Source: a virus. Taken from it: a stretch of 40,171 bases of DNA. The position numbers and the translations under genes were made by a program. The stretch covers positions 1 to 40,171 of the IMG/VR virus record IMGVR_UViG_3300043099_000255; one strand, given 5' to 3'. Positions within the stretch are counted from its first letter, which is position 1; the number at the start of each line of letters is the position of its first letter. Of this stretch, positions 2,275 through 39,727 are shown one piece after another. The notes beneath the pieces are model-generated. The model was not told where the DNA came from, ran no database searches, and saw only the letters and a list, made by a program, of their open reading frames with translations.

Positions 2275-2391
2275 CTACGCAGCCCTCCTGGGCTTGATTG
2301 CTACCACCTTATCCAAATCTGGCAGCAACACCACCAGACCCTCAAAGCTGGTCCCTGTGCCGGCCAGGGTGGTGACGACGGGACTGGACAT
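2275..2391 (-). CDS. 38-aa micro-ORF copying the C-terminus of the terminase small subunit
   Basis: ATG at 2391, TAG at 2275-2277. The peptide (GTSFEGLVVLLPDLDKVV followed by a basic PRRAA end) closely parallels the last 32 residues of the protein encoded at 2820-3068 (GTSFGDLVASLPDMDKIV then PRRKAA). The similarity is also visible at the nucleotide level, so this looks like a partial tandem duplication flanking the gene at 2398-2811. It begins 6 bases after the stop of that gene and ends 2 bases before the next start, which fits an expressed cistron. No strong ribosome-binding site is visible. It could be a decaying fragment or a stand-alone peptide that mimics the terminase tail. Confidence 0.55.
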   Translation of the reverse strand: MSSPVVTTLAGTGTSFEGLVVLLPDLDKVVAIKPRRAA

Positions 2392-2397
2392 GGCGGT

Positions 2398-2811
2398 TTA
2401 ACCGGCAGTGGTGTCAATGACCACAAAGTTCAGGGTCACGGCTTCGCTCAACGACCCGGCGCTGGTGTTGACCACGCGGAAAATGGCCGTGCCGGCACCA
2501 ACGTCAACGCAGTGGGCTTGGTACGAGCCAGCGGTGCCACCCGTGCCTTGGTTGACGTTGACGACGTCGGTGCCGCTGATGGCGCTGTTGGTCATCGTGA
2601 ACTGGACGGCAGCACTGGCGGCCAGGGCAGCGTTGTGCATGGTGACGACGCCAGCCTTGGCGTTGACGACGACGGTCGTGGACTTGCTAGTGCCCTGGGT
2701 CACGGTGCCGAACCCAGCGGGGCCAATGCCGATGGCAGGGGCGTTAGCGATGGCGTTGTTGGTCGGGGTCGAAATGTAGAACCCGGATGGGATGTCAGCA
2801 GGATCAGGCAT
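2398..2811 (-). CDS. Small beta-sandwich virion protein (possible capsid decoration)
   Basis: 137 aa, rich in Ala, Thr, Val and Gly with alternating hydrophobic pattern. The core motif runs VTQGTSKSTTVVVNAKAGVV, then an ALAASAAVQFTM segment, then GSLSEAVTLNFVVID at the C-terminus. This layout recurs in small structural proteins of many tailed phages. It is an immunoglobulin-like beta sandwich by appearance, not by search. It follows the terminase small subunit by 8 bases. High-copy decoration of head or tail is an inference; the protein could also be a tail-fibre accessory. Confidence 0.65.
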   Translation of the reverse strand: MPDPADIPSGFYISTPTNNAIANAPAIGIGPAGFGTVTQGTSKSTTVVVNAKAGVVTMHNAALAASAAVQFTMTNSAISGTDVVNVNQGTGGTAGSYQAHCVDVGAGTAIFRVVNTSAGSLSEAVTLNFVVIDTTAG

Positions 2812-2819
2812 GGGAGGTT

Positions 2820-3068
2820 CTAGGCGGCCTTGCGCCGGGGCATCTGCACAATCTTATCCATATCCGGCAAGGAGGCCACCAGGTCCCCAAAGCTGGTGCC
2901 GACCACCGGCTGAGCTGAGATGCCGTTGTCCTTGAGGAACTGACGCAAGATGTTCAGCTCAGCGGTGCTGATGGACCCATCGTCGAGCCTGGACCGCAGG
3001 TGGAGCGCCAGGTCGGTGTGGAGGTTCGACAGGACCCGTGAGGCCTCGGATTCGTTAGGGCGACCCAT
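2820..3068 (-). CDS. Terminase small subunit (gp18-like DNA maturase A)
   Basis: 82 aa, about the length of T7 gp18. An N-terminal helical segment (SEASRVLSNLHTDLALHLRS) is followed by the phrase TAELNILRQFLKDNGI, which is characteristic of small terminase subunits in T7-like phages (cf. 'aaRQFLKdN'). The protein ends with a short Asp-rich stretch and basic tail (LPDMDKIVQMPRRKAA). It is the first gene of the leftward operon, directly downstream of the control region. In T7 it lies just before gp19; here several virion genes separate it from the large subunit at 37707. The role would be recognition of concatemer DNA for packaging. Identification rests on motif and length only. Confidence 0.7.
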   Translation of the reverse strand: MGRPNESEASRVLSNLHTDLALHLRSRLDDGSISTAELNILRQFLKDNGISAQPVVGTSFGDLVASLPDMDKIVQMPRRKAA

Positions 3069-3157
3069 GGGGGCACAGGGGGGCTAATGGGCCAATGGTA
3101 GGACCCAGGACCAGTAGTACATATGTGTGCGTGAGTGAAGAAGGGGAAAAATCCCCC

Positions 3158-3177
3158 CCCTATAGTTACTATAGTTA
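3158..3177 (-). promoter_or_regulatory. T7-type phage RNA polymerase promoter candidate
   Basis: Reading leftward, the 20-mer ends ACTATAGGG and matches the T7 class III promoter consensus (-17 to +3) at 14 of 20 positions, including the complete CTATAGGG initiation block. Transcription from the first G would begin with a run of eight G residues (3153-3160) and enter the terminase/virion operon at 3068. The phage encodes its own RNA polymerase. Specificity of that enzyme is unknown, so this remains a candidate. Confidence 0.45.
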
Positions 3178-3186
3178 AATATAGAT

Positions 3187-3204
3187 ACTATGGTTGACCA
3201 TAGT
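3187..3204. promoter_or_regulatory. 18-bp perfect dyad, operator or origin element
   Basis: ACTATGGT and its exact inverse ACCATAGT flank a 2-base TG centre. The core ATGGTTGACC (3190-3199) occurs again exactly at 3275-3284, with one mismatch at 3255-3264, and inverted as CAACCATAG at 3336-3344. Repetition of one motif in a short A+T-rich tract suggests binding sites for a phage or host protein. Confidence 0.5.
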
Positions 3205-3209
3205 GTATA

Positions 3210-3226
3210 GCTTCCCGAAGGGAAGC
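3210..3226. other. Hairpin, 7-bp stem with GAA loop
   Basis: GCTTCCC (3210-3216) pairs perfectly with GGGAAGC (3220-3226). No T-run follows on either strand, so a terminator is not supported. It may be a structural element of the origin or an RNA-processing site. Confidence 0.4.
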
Positions 3227-3440
3227 GGTTAGGAGGTAAGGTAATACCAAATACATGGTTAACCTAGGAGTAATATGGTTGACCAGGATCTTCTTTCATT
3301 GGTACTGATGATGAAAATACATAGTGAACTATGAACAACCATAGACACCTATATCCACCCCTATTGAATTATGGCGGACGTCGTTTCACCGGGGTCCAGA
3401 CCAGAGGGAAAAGTGGGGAACGGGGGTGACTTTTTGGTGG

Positions 3441-25414: not shown

Positions 25415-28400
25415 ATGCCTATCCAAACGATCCGCGACCCCAAGACCGGGGAAGAGCGCCGGGTCTATGTGTCAACGGGTGGCATGGGTGCCGGGGCTCC
25501 ACCCAAACCCAAGCCCCAGCCATCGGCCGGCGGTGGATTCATGGGGACGTTGAACGACTTCAACCCCATGAAGCAGATCAGCGCCCTGGGCACTGGGGTG
25601 TCCACGTTTCTTCAGACCGGGGACCTGAACAAAAGCATTGCAGCTGCGTCGAGGGAAGCTGCGCCAACGACGGCCCTGGGTCAATCAGTCAGCCGGACCC
25701 TGGCGGCAGGCGGTCAGCGGGCTGTGGATGCAGCTCGGCTTGAGATCGACCGAGCACGTCTGGCCCGGGAGCAGATGGTAGCAGGCACGTCGGGGTGGGA
25801 CGTCAAGATCCCATCCAGGGGCCCCGGCGCCCCCAGTGCCACGCGAGTGCGGCTGCCCGAGTGGGCCAACTACGACGACATGCGCGTTGAACCCAAGAAC
25901 CCGGTCGAGGACGTCGCTGCCAGCATCATTGCGTTTGCCCCGTATTTCGCCGTTGCCCGTGGAGCCGGGGCCCCAGCACAGGCCTTGGTGCGTGGGTTGC
26001 CTGGCGTGTCCAGGGTGGCCACTGGCTTTGAAGCCGCGACTGCTGGCCTGAAAGCTGCTGGTGGCGCCAAGCGTGTTGCCGGCATCTTTGCGGAAGAAGC
26101 CGTCTCTGGTGCCATCCCCAGCGCCATTGCCACCTACTACGCCACCAAGCCCACCGACAAGACGTTGAGCGACAGCTTGGCCGAGACGGTCAAGGGCTCA
26201 GTGTTTGAGGGTGTTGTGGCCAGGGGCCTGTTGGCCGACCCGAATGACACGGTTGAGCAGGCCCGCATCAAGCAATCCATCAACGACCTGATCTGGTCGG
26301 TGCCCTTGGGCGGTGGCTTGGGCACGGGCCTTGCTGGTCTCAACAGGTTGGGGGAGGCAGGCTTCCGTGGAATTGGTGCCATGAAAGGCGCCACCAAGCG
26401 GGCGTTTGCCGATGTGATCCAGGGTGTGGTCAAGGTCGGCCAGGCTGATCAAGCCGTAAAGGATGCAACTACGGCACCGGTTGCGGCTGCCGTCGACCCG
26501 AGTGTCCCAAGTGCGGGAACTCCAGCCCCTGCTGCTGCACCAGCGCCGCGTGTCGTGTCCGGCAAGCCAGCGTTCTCGTCTGTGGCGTACTACCAGGGCC
26601 TGCGTCGTCAGCCGTTGTGGGAAAAGACCGGCGTCGAGATCCAAGGACGCCTGGAGCCCCAGGCCCCGCAGTCGCTTCCGGTTGACTCGTACACCGCCAA
26701 GCTGAACTACAGCGACGTCAGGCCTGACGCTGGCCCGCTGAACGCCAGTGGCAAGAGGTATGCACAGGCCCTGGCTGGCCAGGATCAGATTGCGATTGAG
26801 GCGACGTCGCAGAAGCTCCGGGCCACGTTCAACAACGCGGCCGCCAAGCTTGGCATCGAGCTTGGCCCCAATGCCAGCAGCCAGTCGTGGTCCATGTGGG
26901 ACATCGGCAAGCAGCTGTACATGGATGCCAACCCAGCGAAGAGCAACAAGCCGTATGTGCTTGGCAACCCGCTGACCAACATCCAGGTCCAAGCCGACAT
27001 CGTCGACCGGATGCTTGGATTTGAGATCACCAAAGGGGTTGACGTTGAGGGGAAGCGCCTGAAGTCCTGGCAGCTGACGTCGATCGGCCGCAAGGCCCGG
27101 GAAGACGCAGGCGTCGAGCTTGGCCTAATGCCGGACCCCGGCTCCCAGCGCACCATCCCGGCCCCCAGCGCACCACCGACGCCAGAAGCTGCAGCAGCGG
27201 CCCTGCAACAGGCTCAAGCCGAGCTGGTTGTAGCGACACAACGACTGCAGTCCGAGGCCGCCAAGGAGGTGGTGACTGCGCCTGAGGTTGCAGCGGTGCC
27301 CCAGGGCCAGCTGCCAGGCATGAACCAGCCGGCCTACGAGCAGGTTGCCACTATCCCGACTGGTGACGCTGCTGTTGCACCAAAGGTTTTCCAGTACAAA
27401 GCAGAGGGCCAGACGGCCACCGGCCGCAGTGGATCGCTTGCTGAGGAGAACGTCTACGACCCCCGGTACGCAGGCGTCATCAGCGTTTGGCGGGACAAGC
27501 TGGGCGAGCTTGGGCCTGTCAATCAGATCTACGTCGCAAACGGCCACAACCGGCATGAGCTTGCTGTACGCAGTGGGTTCCCGATGATCAATGTGCAGTT
27601 CATCGAGGCCGCGACAGCCGCAGAAGCCCGCGTCGTTGCAGCACTGCAGAACATCAAGGATGACAGGGGCACCGCTGTCGATGCCGGCAAGCTTCTCCGG
27701 GACACCGGCATGTCCATCGAGGACCTGCGCCTTCAGAACGTCAACCTGAACGGGAAGCTGGCCAGCGAAGGTGTGGCCCTCAGTCGCTTGCCTCAGTGGT
27801 TGTTTGACAAAGCCGCTACCGGCAGCCTGCCCACCCCCAAGGCCGTGGCTTTGGGCTCTGCCGAAGGGGTTGACGACGCAATCATCAGCGACGTCGCCAA
27901 GCAAGCAATCGCTGGCAAGTGGTCGGCCGAGAAGATTGTCCAGGCCATGCAGGAGGCCAAGTTCGCCAGCACCAGCACCGGAGGCGGTGACGCAGGTCCT
28001 GTGTTGCCTGGGTTTGAGGAGATGCTCAAGACCAGCAACGTTGTGGCCTTGATCGACATCAGGACCGCTGCGTTCAACAAGCTTTCGGGGGAGATGCGGG
28101 CCCTGACCGCTGCATCCCAGGCCAAGAACACCAGTTACCTGGAGGCCGCCGGTAACACCATCAACGTCGAAGGCAGCCAAGCCGCTCGCAAGATGGCGGC
28201 TGAAGCCGTCGCTGTATTCAACAGGGTCACCGCGTACGAAGGTCCGGTCCGCAACATCTTGAACGAGCTGGCGGCCCAGCTGCCAGAAGGGGCAGGTCGC
28301 TCCAAGGCCGCAGCGAACCTGGTGCAGTTCAATCTCCAGCGGTTGAGGGACGCAATCTCTGAGGAGATGAATGGGCCGCGGTTGCTTCAGGACGAAGCTG

Positions 28401-31400
28401 TGGCCAAGCAGATCCAGGAGCCACCGGCCCCAACTGCCGCAGCTGAACCTGCCGCCACAACCTTTGCCGACCCCCTAGAGGCTGAGAACCTGGCTGATGC
28501 CCGTGGGTTCCTGGGGCTCCCTGCGACCGCCAACGTGGCCCAGGTTGCGCGGGTGGCCAAGCAGGAGGGCTACGACGGCATTGTGTTCACCGGGGACTTT
28601 GGCCTGCCCGGTGGCAAGAGGGAGATCGACCTCAGGGCCCTGCCTGAAGTCAAGGCCCCTGAGAACGCTGGGAACCCGGTGCCGATTCAGGCCAAGCCGG
28701 TTGACGTGGCGCCAGCTACTGCCATCGAGCCACCCACCGTTTCGGATGAAGCGGTCAAAGCCCTGGAGAAGGCATATCCGTACAGGCCGTATCGCGGCCA
28801 GGGGGCAGTAGACATTGCGCAAGAAAGGCTCAACCGTGTCCAGGCTTTACTGGAAAGCACAAGGTTTGAACTTGAAGCGCTGAGGGCCAGCAAGCCCGAG
28901 CCGGGCGCAACTGGTGCCGTGGCGCGAAAAGCCCAGCTCGACTGGCAGCGCAATTTCGCCAAGTTCACTGAGCAAGAAGCGGCAGTCGTCCAAGACCTCG
29001 CAACGGCTCAGGCGGTGGTGGATCAGTTCATGAACGCCCCCACCGGTGCCATTACCCCTGGCTTCACGGCCAAGACCGGTGGCGCCAAGGACGAGAACGA
29101 AGCCATCTCCACCGCTCTGGAGCGCCAGGCGTTAGCCGAGGAGGCTGGTGACACCGAGCTGGCTGGCGAACTGGGCACTTGGCTTGGTCGTCGGGGCGTG
29201 GCGGTCCAGCCCATGGGCGACGTGGCTGCTGCGATCGAGCCCCCAACGCTGACCTTGCCCCGTGAGCTGGCAGGCCTCAAGCCCCGTTACAGCTACGGCC
29301 AGAAGCGGTTTGAGTTGACCTTTGAGACCGACCTGGACCGTGTTGCCTACACCTTGGCTGGTGACGCCACCGGCAAGCCATCCAAGTCGCACCAGAAGTA
29401 CCGGGATTGGCTGGAGTCCAACGGCCTGGACCCGGCGGAAGTTGCTGCGTACGGGGCCCGCGTCGTCAAGCCCAGCATCAAGGAGATGGCGGCCACCGCG
29501 CAGCCAGGCACCCTCCAGGTGCGGAACCAAGGCTTTGGTGGCGCTGACTTCCAGGCCGAGCTGCCCAACCTTGAGGGCTGGCGCAACGTCGAAACCGGCG
29601 TCGGTGGCACCGTTGGCGAGGGGTACACAGGTGCTACCCGCATCACCGAACGGGAAGCCAGCGAGCTGGCCCGGATTGCGTTCAACATCAGCGGTGTCAC
29701 GGATTTCAGGATCCAGGAACGGATCGAGGCCACCTATGGGCCACGCCAGGCCCGGGCGTACGGCGACATGAGTTTGGTCGGTCAGAAGGCCGAGATCGCT
29801 GGGTCGTACCGGCACGGCAAGGCCATGGCTGACGACACGATCACTGTCGCGATGACGGCTTACGGGGTGCCAAAGTCGTTCACCCAGATGATGACGACGA
29901 CGTACCACGAGTCCATGCACCGGCTCATGGAATGGTTCTTTGCATCTGCCGAGAAGCTGGTGTTGGCCAGGTCTGAGAAGGGCCTGAGAGAGATGGCAGC
30001 CTTGCTGATGGAGGACTCCCTCCAGCCCAACAAAGCCCGGGCGTACCGGGACGGCACCATCCAGATGGGCGAGGTGATCTCTGATGCGTTTGCTGCATAC
30101 ATGCGGGGCATCACCTTGCCAAAGGTTGACCTGCAGGGCTTTGCAAAGCTGAAGAATTACATCGACCAGTCGATCAACTACATCATCAGCGGCGGCAAGT
30201 ACAAGACCTGGGACGACGTGTTTGAGAAGGCTGCGCTGGGCGAGTTCCAAGGCCGTGGTGGTACCGGAGAGCCTGGTGTCCAGTTCGCCGCCGATCCCCC
30301 GGACCCCGCTGAGTTCGCCCGGCGCATTGACCAGAACCTTCAGGCCCTGGAGTCCGGGGACCTGACCCCTGAGGAAATTGCCCAAATGGGCGCCAGCGAC
30401 GTGCGTCGGATCACCAGCCGCTCGGGCAACACCCAGTACGTGCCGAACGCGCCAGACACCCTAATTGCCAGCAACAAGGCCCTAGGCGAGATGCTGACCA
30501 GCAGGGCCCAGCAGACCGGCATCGAGAGCTACAGCCAACCAGCGGTCGTCAAGGCCGCCATGGACCAGCTGGACGCCGATGGGTGGGCCGTTGAGTCAAC
30601 AGTGACCCGGCTTGAGGCCGCCCGCCGCGGTGACCCCAAGTCTCAACAGGACCTGGTGGCTCTCGCTGCCAACCTGATCCACCGGGACCACATCGCCGCC
30701 CAGAACGGCATGACCGCGATTGAGTGGCAGTCCGCCGTGGACGAGGCTGATCGTGCTGCGTCGATGCAACGGTTGTGGTCTGGCCTTGAGGACCAGCACC
30801 GCCTCGACACCGCTTTGATGACGGCCACCCGCAAGGACGGCCAGCGGTTGAGCGTGATGCAGATCAAGTACGACTTCGACCCGACGCACAGGCAGGTGCC
30901 AGCCGGGACCCCCCTGTACCACGGCACGACGGAAGCCAATGCCCAGTCGATCGTCGACAACGGGTTCCAAGCTTCTGGCCCCAACAGCAATTTGCTGGGC
31001 AGCGGTGTGTATTTCGCCAATGACCCGCGTTACGCAGGGGCCTACGGCGAGGCCGCTGCAGCTGGCGACCTGCCCAGCGACGTGCGGATCCTTGACTTGG
31101 TGGCGATGGACAAGCGCATTGCCGACCTGGTGCAGGAACTGAACCTCGGCCCCCTTGAGCGGTTTGAGGAGAACCTGTACATGACTGGAGCCCAGAAGGC
31201 CGCAGTCCGCGATTGGGCCGTGGGCCAGGGCTACTCCGGCATCCGGTTCAACCCGGACTTTGAGCTGGGCGAAGGTGCCCCAGAGACCGTCATCTTCGAC
31301 ACCAACGTCGCCAACCGCATCGTCGGGTCCAAGGCGGCTGTGGAACCCGAGATGCCAGCAACAGCTGAGTCGATGGGCACCGACATCGAGAACGAGATCG

Positions 31401-33898
31401 CCAACCCCCTGAACACGATCCTGGGCAAGATCGACCCCGACATCAGGTCCGACATCGAGCAAGGGGTCATGAGCCCCGAAGCCACCGAGATGACCGAGGT
31501 CGCTGCCCAGGTCGCTATCTCCGGCCGCGGCAATCCTGGGATGCGGGCCAAGCTCAACAGCATCGTCGGCAAGATCGACGTCGGCCGGCTGAACCAGGAA
31601 ATGTTTGTGCAGGCGTACCGGGCTGCGCTGCTGTGGTCGCCCAAGACCTGGACCAAGATGCTCGTCGGCTCTGCGTACCGGGCCGTCACGATGCCCATCA
31701 ACCAGGCCATCGCTGAGACCGGAACAGCTGGCATCGCCGCCCTCAAAGGCGACAACAAGGCCGCGTACCGGGCCATGCGCCAAGCCAGCTTGAACATGGG
31801 CATGTACGGCAAGTACGTGTCCAACTGGTCCAACGCTTTCCGCTTGGTCGGGGAATCGTTCCGCACTGGCGAGAGCTTCGGCAACCTGGGTGCCTCGTCG
31901 ATGGACTTGGCCCAACGGAACCTGGGACAAGGCGACGGTCAGACGTCGCTCTTTGGCGAGACCCGTGACCCGGCCAACACATTGGAGAACCCGTGGTGGA
32001 TTGATCCTGAGAACATGAACATCCCGGCCCAGTTTGCCCACAAGGCCTGGAAGCTCTTGAGCGTCTCTGGTCGGGTCTCGGGTTCGCTGGACACGTTCTT
32101 CTCGTCACTCATCGGCCCCAGCGCCGAATGGAGCCGGATCATGGGCCTGGAGCTTGAGAAAGCCGAAGGTCGTGGACTGACTGGTGACGCAGCTTGGGCT
32201 GAGGCCAGCAAAATCACCGACGAACGCATTGAGAACCAGTGGGTCAACGTGCTCCTGAACGACAAAACTATTGAGAACGGTGCGTTCACTGGGATCCATG
32301 CCAAAGCCGCGATGGACTGGATCAACTTCACCGATGACCTAGACGTCCAGTTCCAGCCCCGGAGCTACGAGTACGGCATTGCCAAGGCCAAGGAAGAGGG
32401 CATCACTGACACCGCTGAGATCAACAGGCGGGCCCTGGCCTGGATGCAAGAGGAGCCGCCCGTCTGGGCGCAGCGGGGCATGGGCGTCGGTCAAGCCGTT
32501 GGCTGGATGCCCAAGGCGTTCAAAGACGCAATCAACCACACGCCAGCGCTGGGCATCTTGAATCCGTTCCCCACCAGCCCGGCCAACATCACTAAGGCCG
32601 CCATGCGGGCCACGGGTGTCGGCGCTCCGTTCGTCGACTCCTTTTACCGGGATGTCTTCAGCGAAGACCGCAACACCAGGGCTCGGGCCATTGGCGAAAT
32701 TGCCACCGCGTACATGACGCTCGTCGGTGGGGTCATGTTGGCCACCAGCGGCTTCGTTGAACTCAGTGGACCTGGGTCGTACAACCCGCAAACCAGGGCC
32801 AAGATGCAACGTCTTGGCTCCCAGCCATACTCCATCCGGTTCAAGAACCCGGCCACTGGTGACACGACACGGTGGTGGGACCTGCAAGCCCTGGACACGG
32901 TCAGCAACGTGTTCTCGTTGATCGGCCTGCAGATGAACCTGAACAACAGCTTGCCAAAGGAGGACCGGGAGATCCTGGCGTCCAACTTCGTCCTGTCCAT
33001 TGCTGAGACAGCCCGCCAGGTCGGCTTTGCCCAATTCACCAAGGACATGTACAAGTCCATGGGCGAGATTTTCAATTTGGTCTCCGAACTGCAAGACAAG
33101 AGCTTTGTGCCGACCGAGGGCCAGGTCGATCCGTTCTCTGGCTACGTCCAACGACGTCTCGCTGGGTTCATGCCGGCCATTTTCAACAACACACGCAAAG
33201 GCACGGATGGGTACCAGCGGGCCATCGAGAAATCCGAGTTGCCGCAGCCGTTTGCCTTTGCCCATGAGCTGGCGCAGCGGTTTGCAAGCAGGATCCCAGG
33301 CTTGTCGGATCAACTGCCACCGATCCTGCACCCCCTCACCGGTGAGCCAATCGCCATCGAGCAGGCCTGGGGCGTCAACTACTTGCCACAGGACCAGCCG
33401 TGGCTCAAAGGTGCCGTCAACGCCATGAGCCCCTTGGCCTTCACCCCCACCAAGGAGGGCTCCAAGGACCCGGTCGACATCGAGCTGGGTCGGTTGTCTG
33501 GTCGCGGCACCGCTTTTCAGATCTGGGGACCCAACGAGCTGGGCTTGCCAAACTTCCGCATGAACCAGACCCAGCTGAACAAGCTGGCCGTGATCACCAG
33601 CCAGTTCATCCCACCGGGTCGTGGATCGACGTTGCACGAAGGCTTGAGCGCCATGGTGGCCCCTGGTTCCAGCTATTGGCAGCTGCCGCCCCCGGAGGCC
33701 AGCAAAGCCACCCAGAGCGCCCGCGCCATCCGCATCAACAAGGAGATCAACTACTACAAGCCTTTCATCAAAGCTGAGTTCTTGGCATCGGAACCAAACC
33801 TTGCGAGGATGATCGAAGAAAACAAGGCCTCCCAAGCCCAGGCCACCTTTGATGCCGCCTACGGCATGCAGTCGTCCTGGTCCCCAACCCCCCGCTAA
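25415..33898 (+). CDS. Giant ejection protein: gp16-like core fused to ParB, zincin and ADP-ribosyltransferase domains
   Basis: 2827 aa, about twice T7 gp16 (1318). Domains by eye: N-terminal low-complexity and hydrophobic region (1-330); variable Ala/Pro-rich linker; ParB/Srx-like domain (about 655-860) with ANGHNRHELA (G710-E715); a segment with GYDGIVF (1052-1058) like the end of polyvalent-protein ART domains; zincin with HESMH (1498-1502) and likely third ligand E1553 in MGEVISDAFAAYM; PARP-type ADP-ribosyltransferase (about 1830-1970) with H1836 in LYHGTT, Y1866 in GVYFAND and E1957 in PETVIFD. The C-terminal 800 residues (FVQAYRAALLWSPKTWTKML, NPFPTSPANITKAAM, hydrophobic about 2427-2447) match phage internal-virion/polyvalent C-termini. 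Its place after gp14 and gp15 makes it the gp16 equivalent, so the domains are probably injected. Enzymatic targets are unknown. Confidence 0.9.
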   Translation: MPIQTIRDPKTGEERRVYVSTGGMGAGAPPKPKPQPSAGGGFMGTLNDFNPMKQISALGTGVSTFLQTGDLNKSIAAASREAAPTTALGQSVSRTLAAGGQRAVDAARLEIDRARLAREQMVAGTSGWDVKIPSRGPGAPSATRVRLPEWANYDDMRVEPKNPVEDVAASIIAFAPYFAVARGAGAPAQALVRGLPGVSRVATGFEAATAGLKAAGGAKRVAGIFAEEAVSGAIPSAIATYYATKPTDKTLSDSLAETVKGSVFEGVVARGLLADPNDTVEQARIKQSINDLIWSVPLGGGLGTGLAGLNRLGEAGFRGIGAMKGATKRAFADVIQGVVKVGQADQAVKDATTAPVAAAVDPSVPSAGTPAPAAAPAPRVVSGKPAFSSVAYYQGLRRQPLWEKTGVEIQGRLEPQAPQSLPVDSYTAKLNYSDVRPDAGPLNASGKRYAQALAGQDQIAIEATSQKLRATFNNAAAKLGIELGPNASSQSWSMWDIGKQLYMDANPAKSNKPYVLGNPLTNIQVQADIVDRMLGFEITKGVDVEGKRLKSWQLTSIGRKAREDAGVELGLMPDPGSQRTIPAPSAPPTPEAAAAALQQAQAELVVATQRLQSEAAKEVVTAPEVAAVPQGQLPGMNQPAYEQVATIPTGDAAVAPKVFQYKAEGQTATGRSGSLAEENVYDPRYAGVISVWRDKLGELGPVNQIYVANGHNRHELAVRSGFPMINVQFIEAATAAEARVVAALQNIKDDRGTAVDAGKLLRDTGMSIEDLRLQNVNLNGKLASEGVALSRLPQWLFDKAATGSLPTPKAVALGSAEGVDDAIISDVAKQAIAGKWSAEKIVQAMQEAKFASTSTGGGDAGPVLPGFEEMLKTSNVVALIDIRTAAFNKLSGEMRALTAASQAKNTSYLEAAGNTINVEGSQAARKMAAEAVAVFNRVTAYEGPVRNILNELAAQLPEGAGRSKAAANLVQFNLQRLRDAISEEMNGPRLLQDEAVAKQIQEPPAPTAAAEPAATTFADPLEAENLADARGFLGLPATANVAQVARVAKQEGYDGIVFTGDFGLPGGKREIDLRALPEVKAPENAGNPVPIQAKPVDVAPATAIEPPTVSDEAVKALEKAYPYRPYRGQGAVDIAQERLNRVQALLESTRFELEALRASKPEPGATGAVARKAQLDWQRNFAKFTEQEAAVVQDLATAQAVVDQFMNAPTGAITPGFTAKTGGAKDENEAISTALERQALAEEAGDTELAGELGTWLGRRGVAVQPMGDVAAAIEPPTLTLPRELAGLKPRYSYGQKRFELTFETDLDRVAYTLAGDATGKPSKSHQKYRDWLESNGLDPAEVAAYGARVVKPSIKEMAATAQPGTLQVRNQGFGGADFQAELPNLEGWRNVETGVGGTVGEGYTGATRITEREASELARIAFNISGVTDFRIQERIEATYGPRQARAYGDMSLVGQKAEIAGSYRHGKAMADDTITVAMTAYGVPKSFTQMMTTTYHESMHRLMEWFFASAEKLVLARSEKGLREMAALLMEDSLQPNKARAYRDGTIQMGEVISDAFAAYMRGITLPKVDLQGFAKLKNYIDQSINYIISGGKYKTWDDVFEKAALGEFQGRGGTGEPGVQFAADPPDPAEFARRIDQNLQALESGDLTPEEIAQMGASDVRRITSRSGNTQYVPNAPDTLIASNKALGEMLTSRAQQTGIESYSQPAVVKAAMDQLDADGWAVESTVTRLEAARRGDPKSQQDLVALAANLIHRDHIAAQNGMTAIEWQSAVDEADRAASMQRLWSGLEDQHRLDTALMTATRKDGQRLSVMQIKYDFDPTHRQVPAGTPLYHGTTEANAQSIVDNGFQASGPNSNLLGSGVYFANDPRYAGAYGEAAAAGDLPSDVRILDLVAMDKRIADLVQELNLGPLERFEENLYMTGAQKAAVRDWAVGQGYSGIRFNPDFELGEGAPETVIFDTNVANRIVGSKAAVEPEMPATAESMGTDIENEIANPLNTILGKIDPDIRSDIEQGVMSPEATEMTEVAAQVAISGRGNPGMRAKLNSIVGKIDVGRLNQEMFVQAYRAALLWSPKTWTKMLVGSAYRAVTMPINQAIAETGTAGIAALKGDNKAAYRAMRQASLNMGMYGKYVSNWSNAFRLVGESFRTGESFGNLGASSMDLAQRNLGQGDGQTSLFGETRDPANTLENPWWIDPENMNIPAQFAHKAWKLLSVSGRVSGSLDTFFSSLIGPSAEWSRIMGLELEKAEGRGLTGDAAWAEASKITDERIENQWVNVLLNDKTIENGAFTGIHAKAAMDWINFTDDLDVQFQPRSYEYGIAKAKEEGITDTAEINRRALAWMQEEPPVWAQRGMGVGQAVGWMPKAFKDAINHTPALGILNPFPTSPANITKAAMRATGVGAPFVDSFYRDVFSEDRNTRARAIGEIATAYMTLVGGVMLATSGFVELSGPGSYNPQTRAKMQRLGSQPYSIRFKNPATGDTTRWWDLQALDTVSNVFSLIGLQMNLNNSLPKEDREILASNFVLSIAETARQVGFAQFTKDMYKSMGEIFNLVSELQDKSFVPTEGQVDPFSGYVQRRLAGFMPAIFNNTRKGTDGYQRAIEKSELPQPFAFAHELAQRFASRIPGLSDQLPPILHPLTGEPIAIEQAWGVNYLPQDQPWLKGAVNAMSPLAFTPTKEGSKDPVDIELGRLSGRGTAFQIWGPNELGLPNFRMNQTQLNKLAVITSQFIPPGRGSTLHEGLSAMVAPGSSYWQLPPPEASKATQSARAIRINKEINYYKPFIKAEFLASEPNLARMIEENKASQAQATFDAAYGMQSSWSPTPR

Positions 33899-37706: not shown

Positions 37707-39431
37707 TTAGCGACGAGGCCTGATCCAGCCCGTGGCGGCCGGGGCCGCAGCGAGATCCGTAATGCTGCCGCCCAGAAGAGATCGGTCAAGCGCTCCTTCA
37801 AGGTCTCCCATGTACGCCTGAAGCTCCAGGTCCCAAAGCTCTGACTGTCGTTCCTTGATTGCTCGGTCTTCATCAATGGCCAGCGATTCATTCCAATACT
37901 GGACGGCACCGGCCAAGGCGTCGAGTCGGTCGTCGTGGGCCAAGCAACCACGGTCTGTCGTCAGGTGCGTCAGTTGGTGGAAGAGCTGGTACGCCAGGCG
38001 CTTCTCGATGGCTTCGTCGTCACGAGTCTTGGCGTCACCCTCGATCACCGATCGGCTGACGATGAGCCGGTGCTGGTTCAGGACGGGCTCCAAAGCCGCG
38101 ATGATGCGGCGCTCTTTCTGCACATTGGACCTGACCGTCTCAATGGTGCACGGATGCTGCACCTGTAGATACGGCTTCAGAAGGCTCTCCAGCATGCCTT
38201 GGCCAAACTGGTCCTCTAGGAGGATCAGATTGACCTTCTGGCGCTTTGCAGCCGTTGCCAGGCCCTGCAGAACGGGTTCTGAGTAGCCGTCTCGGAACGC
38301 TCCGGACTCCAGCAAGAACAGGTTGCCGTTGAGATGAGCCACGATCGCGTAGGCCGTTTCATCCAGGCCGCGGCCAGAGGGGTCAATAAACATGACGCAC
38401 CCCTGAAACGGCAACCAGGTGCCGTGGATGTAGGCAGGCCGGTAGTAGTAGTCGCCGTTGAAACCCACCGCCGGCAAATCGCTGATTCGGTACTCGGCCC
38501 CAGACGACCACACGACCTTTTCCGGGGCGTGATCAGAGACCTCCAGGACCATCAGATCCGCGAGCTTCAGCGGGAACCGCTCAGCATCGCTGAGGCTGGT
38601 GTCCAGTTGGAACTGGAGCGCAAATGCCGACCGGCCGTACGACGTCTCCCGCTCCAGCAGGTCCATCTCGCTGAAACGACCAGGATCTGTTGGCTGGTTC
38701 GTCAACTCTGGGCACCCTTCCGCAATCACAGGGGCCAGGTGGTCGCCGTATTTGACGGGTTTCTCGGGGTACCGAGCCGGCCAAATACGCACTTCGTATC
38801 CACGTTGGGCCAGCTTGTTGTAGATCGACTCCTCAGTCTGTGGCGTACCAAGAAACATGATCTCGCCACCGGGCTTCAGGATGGCGTTGAACTCACCCAC
38901 GGCCGCCAGGAGCTTTTCCCGAATGCCGACGGACCACGACGTCGTCGGTGTCTCCACGTCATCGGACAGGATCAAGTCGGCCCGGGACCCCGTCAGTTGG
39001 CCAAAAATCCCAACAGCTTTGACAGAGGGGCTCTGGTCCGGAATCGCAGGCCTGACGTCGAACCGGTTTACAGCTGATCGCTGCTCGTCTCGGTCTGGCT
39101 CCAGGCACTGAAGCATTGGCATCTCGCGGATCAAGCGGATGCAGAACATGGTGAAGTCATCGGCCCGGGTCTTGGAGGCCGACACCACCATGATCTTGCG
39201 CTGTGGGTCTAGGCGCAGCAACCACAGCACGTAGGCCGCGGCCATCCAGGACTTACCCACGCCTCGAAACGCCTCAACAATGCGGCGCTTGGAGCCGTGT
39301 TGCATGTAGTGAGCAATGTCGAGCTGGATGGGCGTGGGGTCAGGCAGGTTCAGGTGGCGCCAGACCAAGACCAGGAAGTAGCGGAAATCAGTGGACAGCG
39401 GCTCTGGGAGCCCAGTCCAGACTGCTGTCAT
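37707..39431 (-). CDS. Terminase large subunit (gp19-like)
   Basis: 574 aa, near T7 gp19 (586). ATPase: Walker A FRGVGKS (55-61) and Walker B LILSDDVE (153-160), then the coupling motif FLGTPQTEES. Nuclease: FIDPSGRGLDETA (D350) and the C-terminal DDRLDALAGAVQYW Asp cluster, RNase-H type. It packages DNA into the prohead and cuts concatemers. ATG 39431 overlaps the stop of the upstream gene (ATGA); the longer N-terminus would run into that gene. Unlike in T7, it is on the opposite strand from the portal and capsid genes and far from its small subunit at 2820. Confidence 0.96.
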   Translation of the reverse strand: MTAVWTGLPEPLSTDFRYFLVLVWRHLNLPDPTPIQLDIAHYMQHGSKRRIVEAFRGVGKSWMAAAYVLWLLRLDPQRKIMVVSASKTRADDFTMFCIRLIREMPMLQCLEPDRDEQRSAVNRFDVRPAIPDQSPSVKAVGIFGQLTGSRADLILSDDVETPTTSWSVGIREKLLAAVGEFNAILKPGGEIMFLGTPQTEESIYNKLAQRGYEVRIWPARYPEKPVKYGDHLAPVIAEGCPELTNQPTDPGRFSEMDLLERETSYGRSAFALQFQLDTSLSDAERFPLKLADLMVLEVSDHAPEKVVWSSGAEYRISDLPAVGFNGDYYYRPAYIHGTWLPFQGCVMFIDPSGRGLDETAYAIVAHLNGNLFLLESGAFRDGYSEPVLQGLATAAKRQKVNLILLEDQFGQGMLESLLKPYLQVQHPCTIETVRSNVQKERRIIAALEPVLNQHRLIVSRSVIEGDAKTRDDEAIEKRLAYQLFHQLTHLTTDRGCLAHDDRLDALAGAVQYWNESLAIDEDRAIKERQSELWDLELQAYMGDLEGALDRSLLGGSITDLAAAPAATGWIRPRR

Positions 39432-39727
39432 GCCCACACCCGCACTGGATGCTGCGGCGTTACCAGATACTCCTCCCACCCATCAGGCAGCTCACCGACG
39501 AAGTTGACGTGCCAGCCGCTCAGCAGCACGGGTGGGGTGATCACCTTGCCGGTGTCGGTGTTGTAGGTGCCGCCTGTGCAGATGGGGCCGATGACATCCA
39601 AGGCGTGGGTGTGGCTGGCGGTGAGCACCACGGTGTCGCCGTCTTCATTGGTGGTGGTAAGACCAGCAGCATCCAAGGCAGCCATGCCGGTGGATTCGTC
39701 GGGGAAGCGGATGTAGGTGGTGGTCAT
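39428..39727 (-). CDS. Small tail-associated protein (99 aa)
   Basis: MTTTYIRFPDESTGMAALDA, then THALDVIGPICTGGTYNTDT and a C-terminal SGWHVNFVGELPDGWEEYLV. Proteins with this 'GWHVNf.G.lP..w..y.v.P..P.RVwA' end are common directly after tail-fibre genes in phages and prophages. They may be tail accessory proteins. The gene is coupled on both sides by ATGA overlaps (tail protein upstream, terminase downstream). Precise function is unknown. Confidence 0.7.
   Translation of the reverse strand: MTTTYIRFPDESTGMAALDAAGLTTTNEDGDTVVLTASHTHALDVIGPICTGGTYNTDTGKVITPPVLLSGWHVNFVGELPDGWEEYLVTPQHPVRVWA

Follow-up and report, generated by a model that had tools for sequence, protein, structure and literature searches.

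The 38-codon open reading frame (micro-ORF) between the small and large terminase genes of this T7-like phage is very likely the in-frame seam of a horizontal cassette exchange between related phages. The micro-ORF is chimeric in make-up, its parts come from two source families, the site at which it lies is variable and its distribution is restricted. From the comparisons described below we infer the order and direction of the events as well as the absence of a packaging role for the peptide. A recombination scar was one of two readings offered in an earlier note on this DNA, and that reading is well supported, the micro-ORF being a chimera of two parents at the edge of a variable cassette. 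Phage mosaicism arises by illegitimate recombination, with chimeric or truncated ORFs at the joints between modules. The micro-ORF is like these in that it joins two fragments of different origin at a cassette border in one lineage only. It is unlike them in that its joint is unusually readable, because a conserved packaging gene is among the partners and the reading frame was kept. No report of a micro-ORF made from a small terminase (TerS) tail was found in a limited search of the open-access literature.

The window, i.e. the whole stretch of DNA that was analysed, is a virus record of 40,171 bases. Its ends carry a near-exact terminal repeat (31 of 33 nt; an exact-match test for a repeat between the ends found none), and a tail-protein-like gene exits at base 3 and re-enters at the opposite end with the same residues; the record is thus probably a whole genome opened inside this gene. 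T7-like genes in the window include those for RNA polymerase, endonuclease I, primase/helicase, exonuclease, a T7-type tail fibre and the large terminase (TerL). On the minus strand the order is TerS, g137, micro-ORF, g308, the tail-protein-like gene, a 99-codon gene and TerL. Since the part from g308 to TerL can be read directly on a single contig (L084), this order is independent of closing the record. TerS (2820-3068, 82 aa) is a T7 gp18-type small terminase (PF11123, E 4.4e-12; phrog_891, E 9.2e-11). The gene g137 (2398-2811, 137 codons; phrog_18251, E 2e-27), whose role is unknown, lies between TerS and the cassette and, along part of its sequence, is about 50% identical to hypothetical proteins of cyanophages. 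The cassette includes g308 (1346-2272), parts of which are common to contigs with other neighbours, and the tail-protein-like gene (3-1340, running off the record start and probably continuing at 40171-39724; phrog_5939 tail protein, E 1e-65). The 99-codon gene (39428-39727; phrog_18574, E 1.4e-15) precedes TerL (37707-39431; phrog_38, E 8e-111). The ATG at 39431, which overlaps the stop codon of the gene before, is the best choice of TerL start, in preference to the GTG that the ORF list gives further upstream.

Among isolates, the P-SCSP1 series of Prochlorococcus phages comes closest by TerL (75% identity). P-SCSP1u is treated in work on cyanopodoviruses that lack a DNA polymerase gene (PMC9860041). 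DNA polymerase A (PF00476), the sole polymerase family tested, gave no match in the window, which does carry RNA polymerase, primase/helicase and exonuclease; the TerL relatives are linked to a clade described as polymerase-less. Two further features of the record are a single ORF of 2827 codons (25415-33898), very long for a podophage of 40 kb, which separates the internal virion genes from the tail fibre, and, upstream of TerS, an AT-richer stretch (3120-3370) in which short motifs around ATAGT/ATGGTT are repeated, as judged by eye. This stretch is possibly regulatory or near a genome-end signal.

The earlier note placed both ORFs correctly on the minus strand (TerS at 3068-2820, 82 codons; micro-ORF at 2391-2275, 38 codons), and one gene, g137 (2811-2398), separates them. 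The nucleotide likeness it reported also stands, with 70% identity over 84 nt between the micro-ORF and the end of the phage's own TerS gene. Searched against the whole record, the TerS protein matches itself and the micro-ORF only (residues 55-82, 54% identity, E 1e-4). A degenerate LPDxDK pattern likewise occurs at two places only in the window, TerS and the micro-ORF, with a mean of 0 matches in 100 shuffles. The micro-ORF carries the C-terminal LPDxDKxV...PRR tail seen in TerS of this phage group: over its final 26 codons it is related to the C-terminus of the T7 gp18-type small terminase (PF11123), the rest of that protein being missing. The 38-aa micro-ORF alone gave no match in Pfam (E up to 1), including PF11123, or in PHROGs.

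These data could suggest a partial duplication of the phage's own TerS tail, as the earlier note described it, followed by divergence. This is very improbable, and "partial duplication" is the wrong description, because the tail comes from another TerS lineage. The note missed that the first 12 codons are not terminase-derived and that the terminase-like part is not nearest to the phage's own TerS. When 47 distinct 26-codon TerS tails were compared over the last 41 nt of the micro-ORF, ending at the next ATG, TerS of the sister contig L168 ranked first at 38/41, followed by 32, 30 and 30, with the others at 25 or fewer; the phage's own TerS reached 19/41. The L168 match spans the stop codon and the following CCATG, including the spacer TAGCCATG, which is absent from the phage's own TerS, where TAGAACCTCCCATG is found instead. 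On this 3' DNA match own-gene duplication was rejected and is regarded as largely refuted.

Over all 81 nt of the terminase-derived 3' part (2275-2355), L168 matches at 61 and the phage's own TerS at 53. The first part of the tail, 69 nt, is 80% identical to own-clade TerS genes with LPDLDKVV (L024, L026, L030). The source of the tail is thus, on sequence likeness, a TerS lineage close to, yet not identical with, L168, and the good match of the first part to own-clade genes points to an unsampled intermediate as donor. A degenerate LV..LPD.DK.V pattern found 74 stretches in viral_contigs, and the readable ones are TerS genes except for the micro-ORFs and an unrelated one, L135; L136 runs off its contig near the motif, with only 24 residues visible. 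The pattern VVA[IM]KPRRA found four stretches, namely two micro-ORF contigs, L168 and L181, the last a chance match in an unrelated frame. The LV..LPD.DK.V scan of viral_contigs and one further pattern scan of it, in which only the micro-ORFs came up, revealed no other free TerS tail of this kind.

In sister phages, TerS with this ending is followed directly by the next gene at the same TAGC[C/T]ATG spacing. The identity of that next gene varies. In L145 and L149, TerS ends in KPRRAA and leads straight into TAGCTATGCCC and a cassette gene, with no g137 between; L111 goes directly from TerS to g109, a cassette gene of 109 codons, also without g137. The spacer TAGCTATG precedes the cassette gene in L145 and L149 and g109 in L111, TAGCCATG precedes g109 in L132 and L166, and TAGTTATG precedes g109 in L160. 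In L168, TAGCCATG stands after TerS and is followed by a g137-like gene, not g308; in the micro-ORF, TAGCCATG is followed by g308. TerL of the window belongs to the same lineage as the phage's own TerS, and because it is 98% identical to own-clade contigs versus 82% to L168, the foreign part seems limited to the cassette.

The 5' part of the micro-ORF (2364-2391) has a different origin. Its 28 nt differ by a single base (27/28) from the start of g109 in L015 and L010, so the micro-ORF starts as a g109 gene. The g109 start reads MSSPIVTTLGTLTSAG in many relatives, and the micro-ORF begins MSSPVVTTLAG. A scan with a g109-start pattern returned 25 stretches, in which the g109 frames are full length or cut by a contig end and the rest are unrelated frames; no further chimera came from it. 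At the joint the window reads ACCACCCTGGCCGGCACAGGGACCAGCTTT, the g109 genes ACCACCCTGGGCACC and the own-clade TerS genes GTGGCCGGCACCAGCTTT. The few bases in common there (CTGG or TGG) would fit a putative microhomology joint.

The micro-ORF thus consists of two parts of different origin (27/28 nt to g109 and 38/41 nt to a sister TerS), and a scenario for its formation can be proposed. The stretch from TerS/g137 to TerL holds a swappable set of virion genes in this T7-like phage group. In an ancestor, illegitimate recombination would have joined this stretch to DNA of a sister phage in which TerS lay directly before the incoming cassette, keeping about 10 codons of the resident g109 on one side of the joint and the last 26 or so of the donor TerS on the other. 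The 3' end of the donor TerS would have been carried along with the cassette and fused to the stump of the replaced gene, and the two fragments, in frame by chance, would have given the 38-codon ORF. The g109 parental arrangement is seen intact. For the donor arrangement, TerS with this tail directly before g308, no contig was found, the pattern scan returning micro-ORFs only, and a search through relatives of g308 found pieces of the cassette in other contigs with no TerS tail ahead of them. Stretches of g308 are 78-91% identical to genes of L085, L086 and L087, whose neighbours differ, which indicates that parts of this cassette gene travel widely.

The site after g137 can be compared across relatives. 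A TerS query yielded 80 viral_contigs loci that were kept, out of 542 passing candidates, and in 41 of them (L003-L043) TerS is 77-100% identical. The comparison set of 38 comprises the window and the 37 of these loci with a complete g137 and sequence beyond it; L006, L014 and L037, which end inside g137, and L042, which runs straight to TerL with no g137, were left out. The other 39 loci (L044-L082; TerS 40-53% identical) gave no match in a screen for the tail motif only. In genome_contigs, TerS was found at 19 loci with 35-51% identity. The contents of the site fall into five groups. Group one, in which the micro-ORF follows g137, includes only the window, L003 and L007 (3/38), and only in these is the micro-ORF seen, with g308 downstream each time. 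Group two, displaying g109 or a variant (107-109 codons) or its start at a contig end, includes 21/38, among which L012 and L017 are cut by the contig end, L018 and L019 have the 107-codon variant and L036 starts with GTG. Group three, displaying TerL directly after g137, includes 10/38. Group four, with other genes, includes L005, L021 and L022. Group five includes only L008, which has another chimeric ORF at the same site (L008:4615-4866), the g109 start (MGIAVVKDLGTLTSAGLT) fused to unrelated sequence and placed directly before TerL. The micro-ORF is therefore lineage-restricted, with alternative contents at the site across the 38 contigs. The refuting outcome named in the earlier note, loss in close relatives, was observed: contigs whose TerS is 98-99% identical (e.g. 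L004, L005, L008) lack the micro-ORF. As a conserved gene of isolated phages it was also rejected, since a tblastn search of 50,697 phage records with the 38 aa found nothing at E up to 10.

The other reading in the earlier note, that a free TerS tail competes for binding to TerL or the portal and in this way regulates packaging, finds no support here, and a selected tail of this sort is extremely improbable. Such competition could occur in principle, as the P22 TerS tail is reported to be needed for TerL binding (cited in PMC7672466); in PaP3, according to that paper, neither DNA binding nor the association of the terminase was found to involve the tail. The micro-ORF is found in only 3/38 contigs, always with the same downstream gene, and its tail is from a different lineage than the resident TerL. 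At five of 20 tail positions (5, 6, 9, 10 and 20, none of them fixed by the search pattern) it has residues unseen in 24 distinct TerS tails, a pattern to be expected from relaxed constraint or from a divergent donor. The free regulatory tail was rejected as unsupported on this distribution and these residues. Median pN/pS of the micro-ORF tail against 47 TerS tails is 0.41, compared with 0.20 for 929 TerS-TerS pairs (95th percentile 0.44), a result that is suggestive only; the pattern by which the tails were gathered keeps the LV..LPD.DK positions fixed. All three copies of the micro-ORF (window, L003, L007) are identical over 117/117 nt. This identity and the in-frame fusion may be compatible with a kept function, three near-identical contigs having no power on the point.

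The one functional reading that is left, as a possible one, is that of a leader for g308, and it is compatible with an origin as a scar. The micro-ORF may be translated and, ending 2 nt before the start codon of g308, may hand ribosomes to that gene. An AGGAGG (2284-2289), a possible Shine-Dalgarno sequence of g308 inside the TerS-derived part, lies 11 nt before the g308 ATG with the TAGCCATG spacing; its duplex energy with the anti-Shine-Dalgarno sequence, -10.5, is the strongest of 19 gene starts checked, and 0.75% of 2000 random 25-mers drawn from the record bind at least as strongly. The same spacing occurs behind TerS in sister phages, but in L145 and L149 it comes with a weak motif (-3.1). 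Because most genes of this phage start without a Shine-Dalgarno signal, AGGAGG may simply be the chance product of two AGG arginine codons. That the scar-born micro-ORF now drives translation of g308 by coupling is therefore a tentative and rather unlikely proposal. Termination-reinitiation coupling, as described in PMC6728339, is similar in that stop and start are close, here 2 nt apart; the stop/start pairs of that paper overlap whereas those of the micro-ORF and g308 do not, and coupling here is putative. It is very improbable that the chimera was recruited in such a way that the cassette travels with a terminase-tail leader setting the translation of the incoming virion gene. If true, the 3' end of terS would serve these phages as a portable translation handle that moves with their swappable cassettes.

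The observation of a terminase-like micro-ORF is real. Most likely the micro-ORF is an in-frame scar, of an ordinary kind, left by an exchange of cassettes; a functional claim for its peptide is not warranted. It provides a readable example of how short in-frame chimeric ORFs, which may be taken wrongly for regulators, arise when cassettes are exchanged beside a packaging gene. The interval between TerS and TerL is also marked by it as a place where these T7-like phages, probably of cyanobacteria, frequently exchange cassettes.
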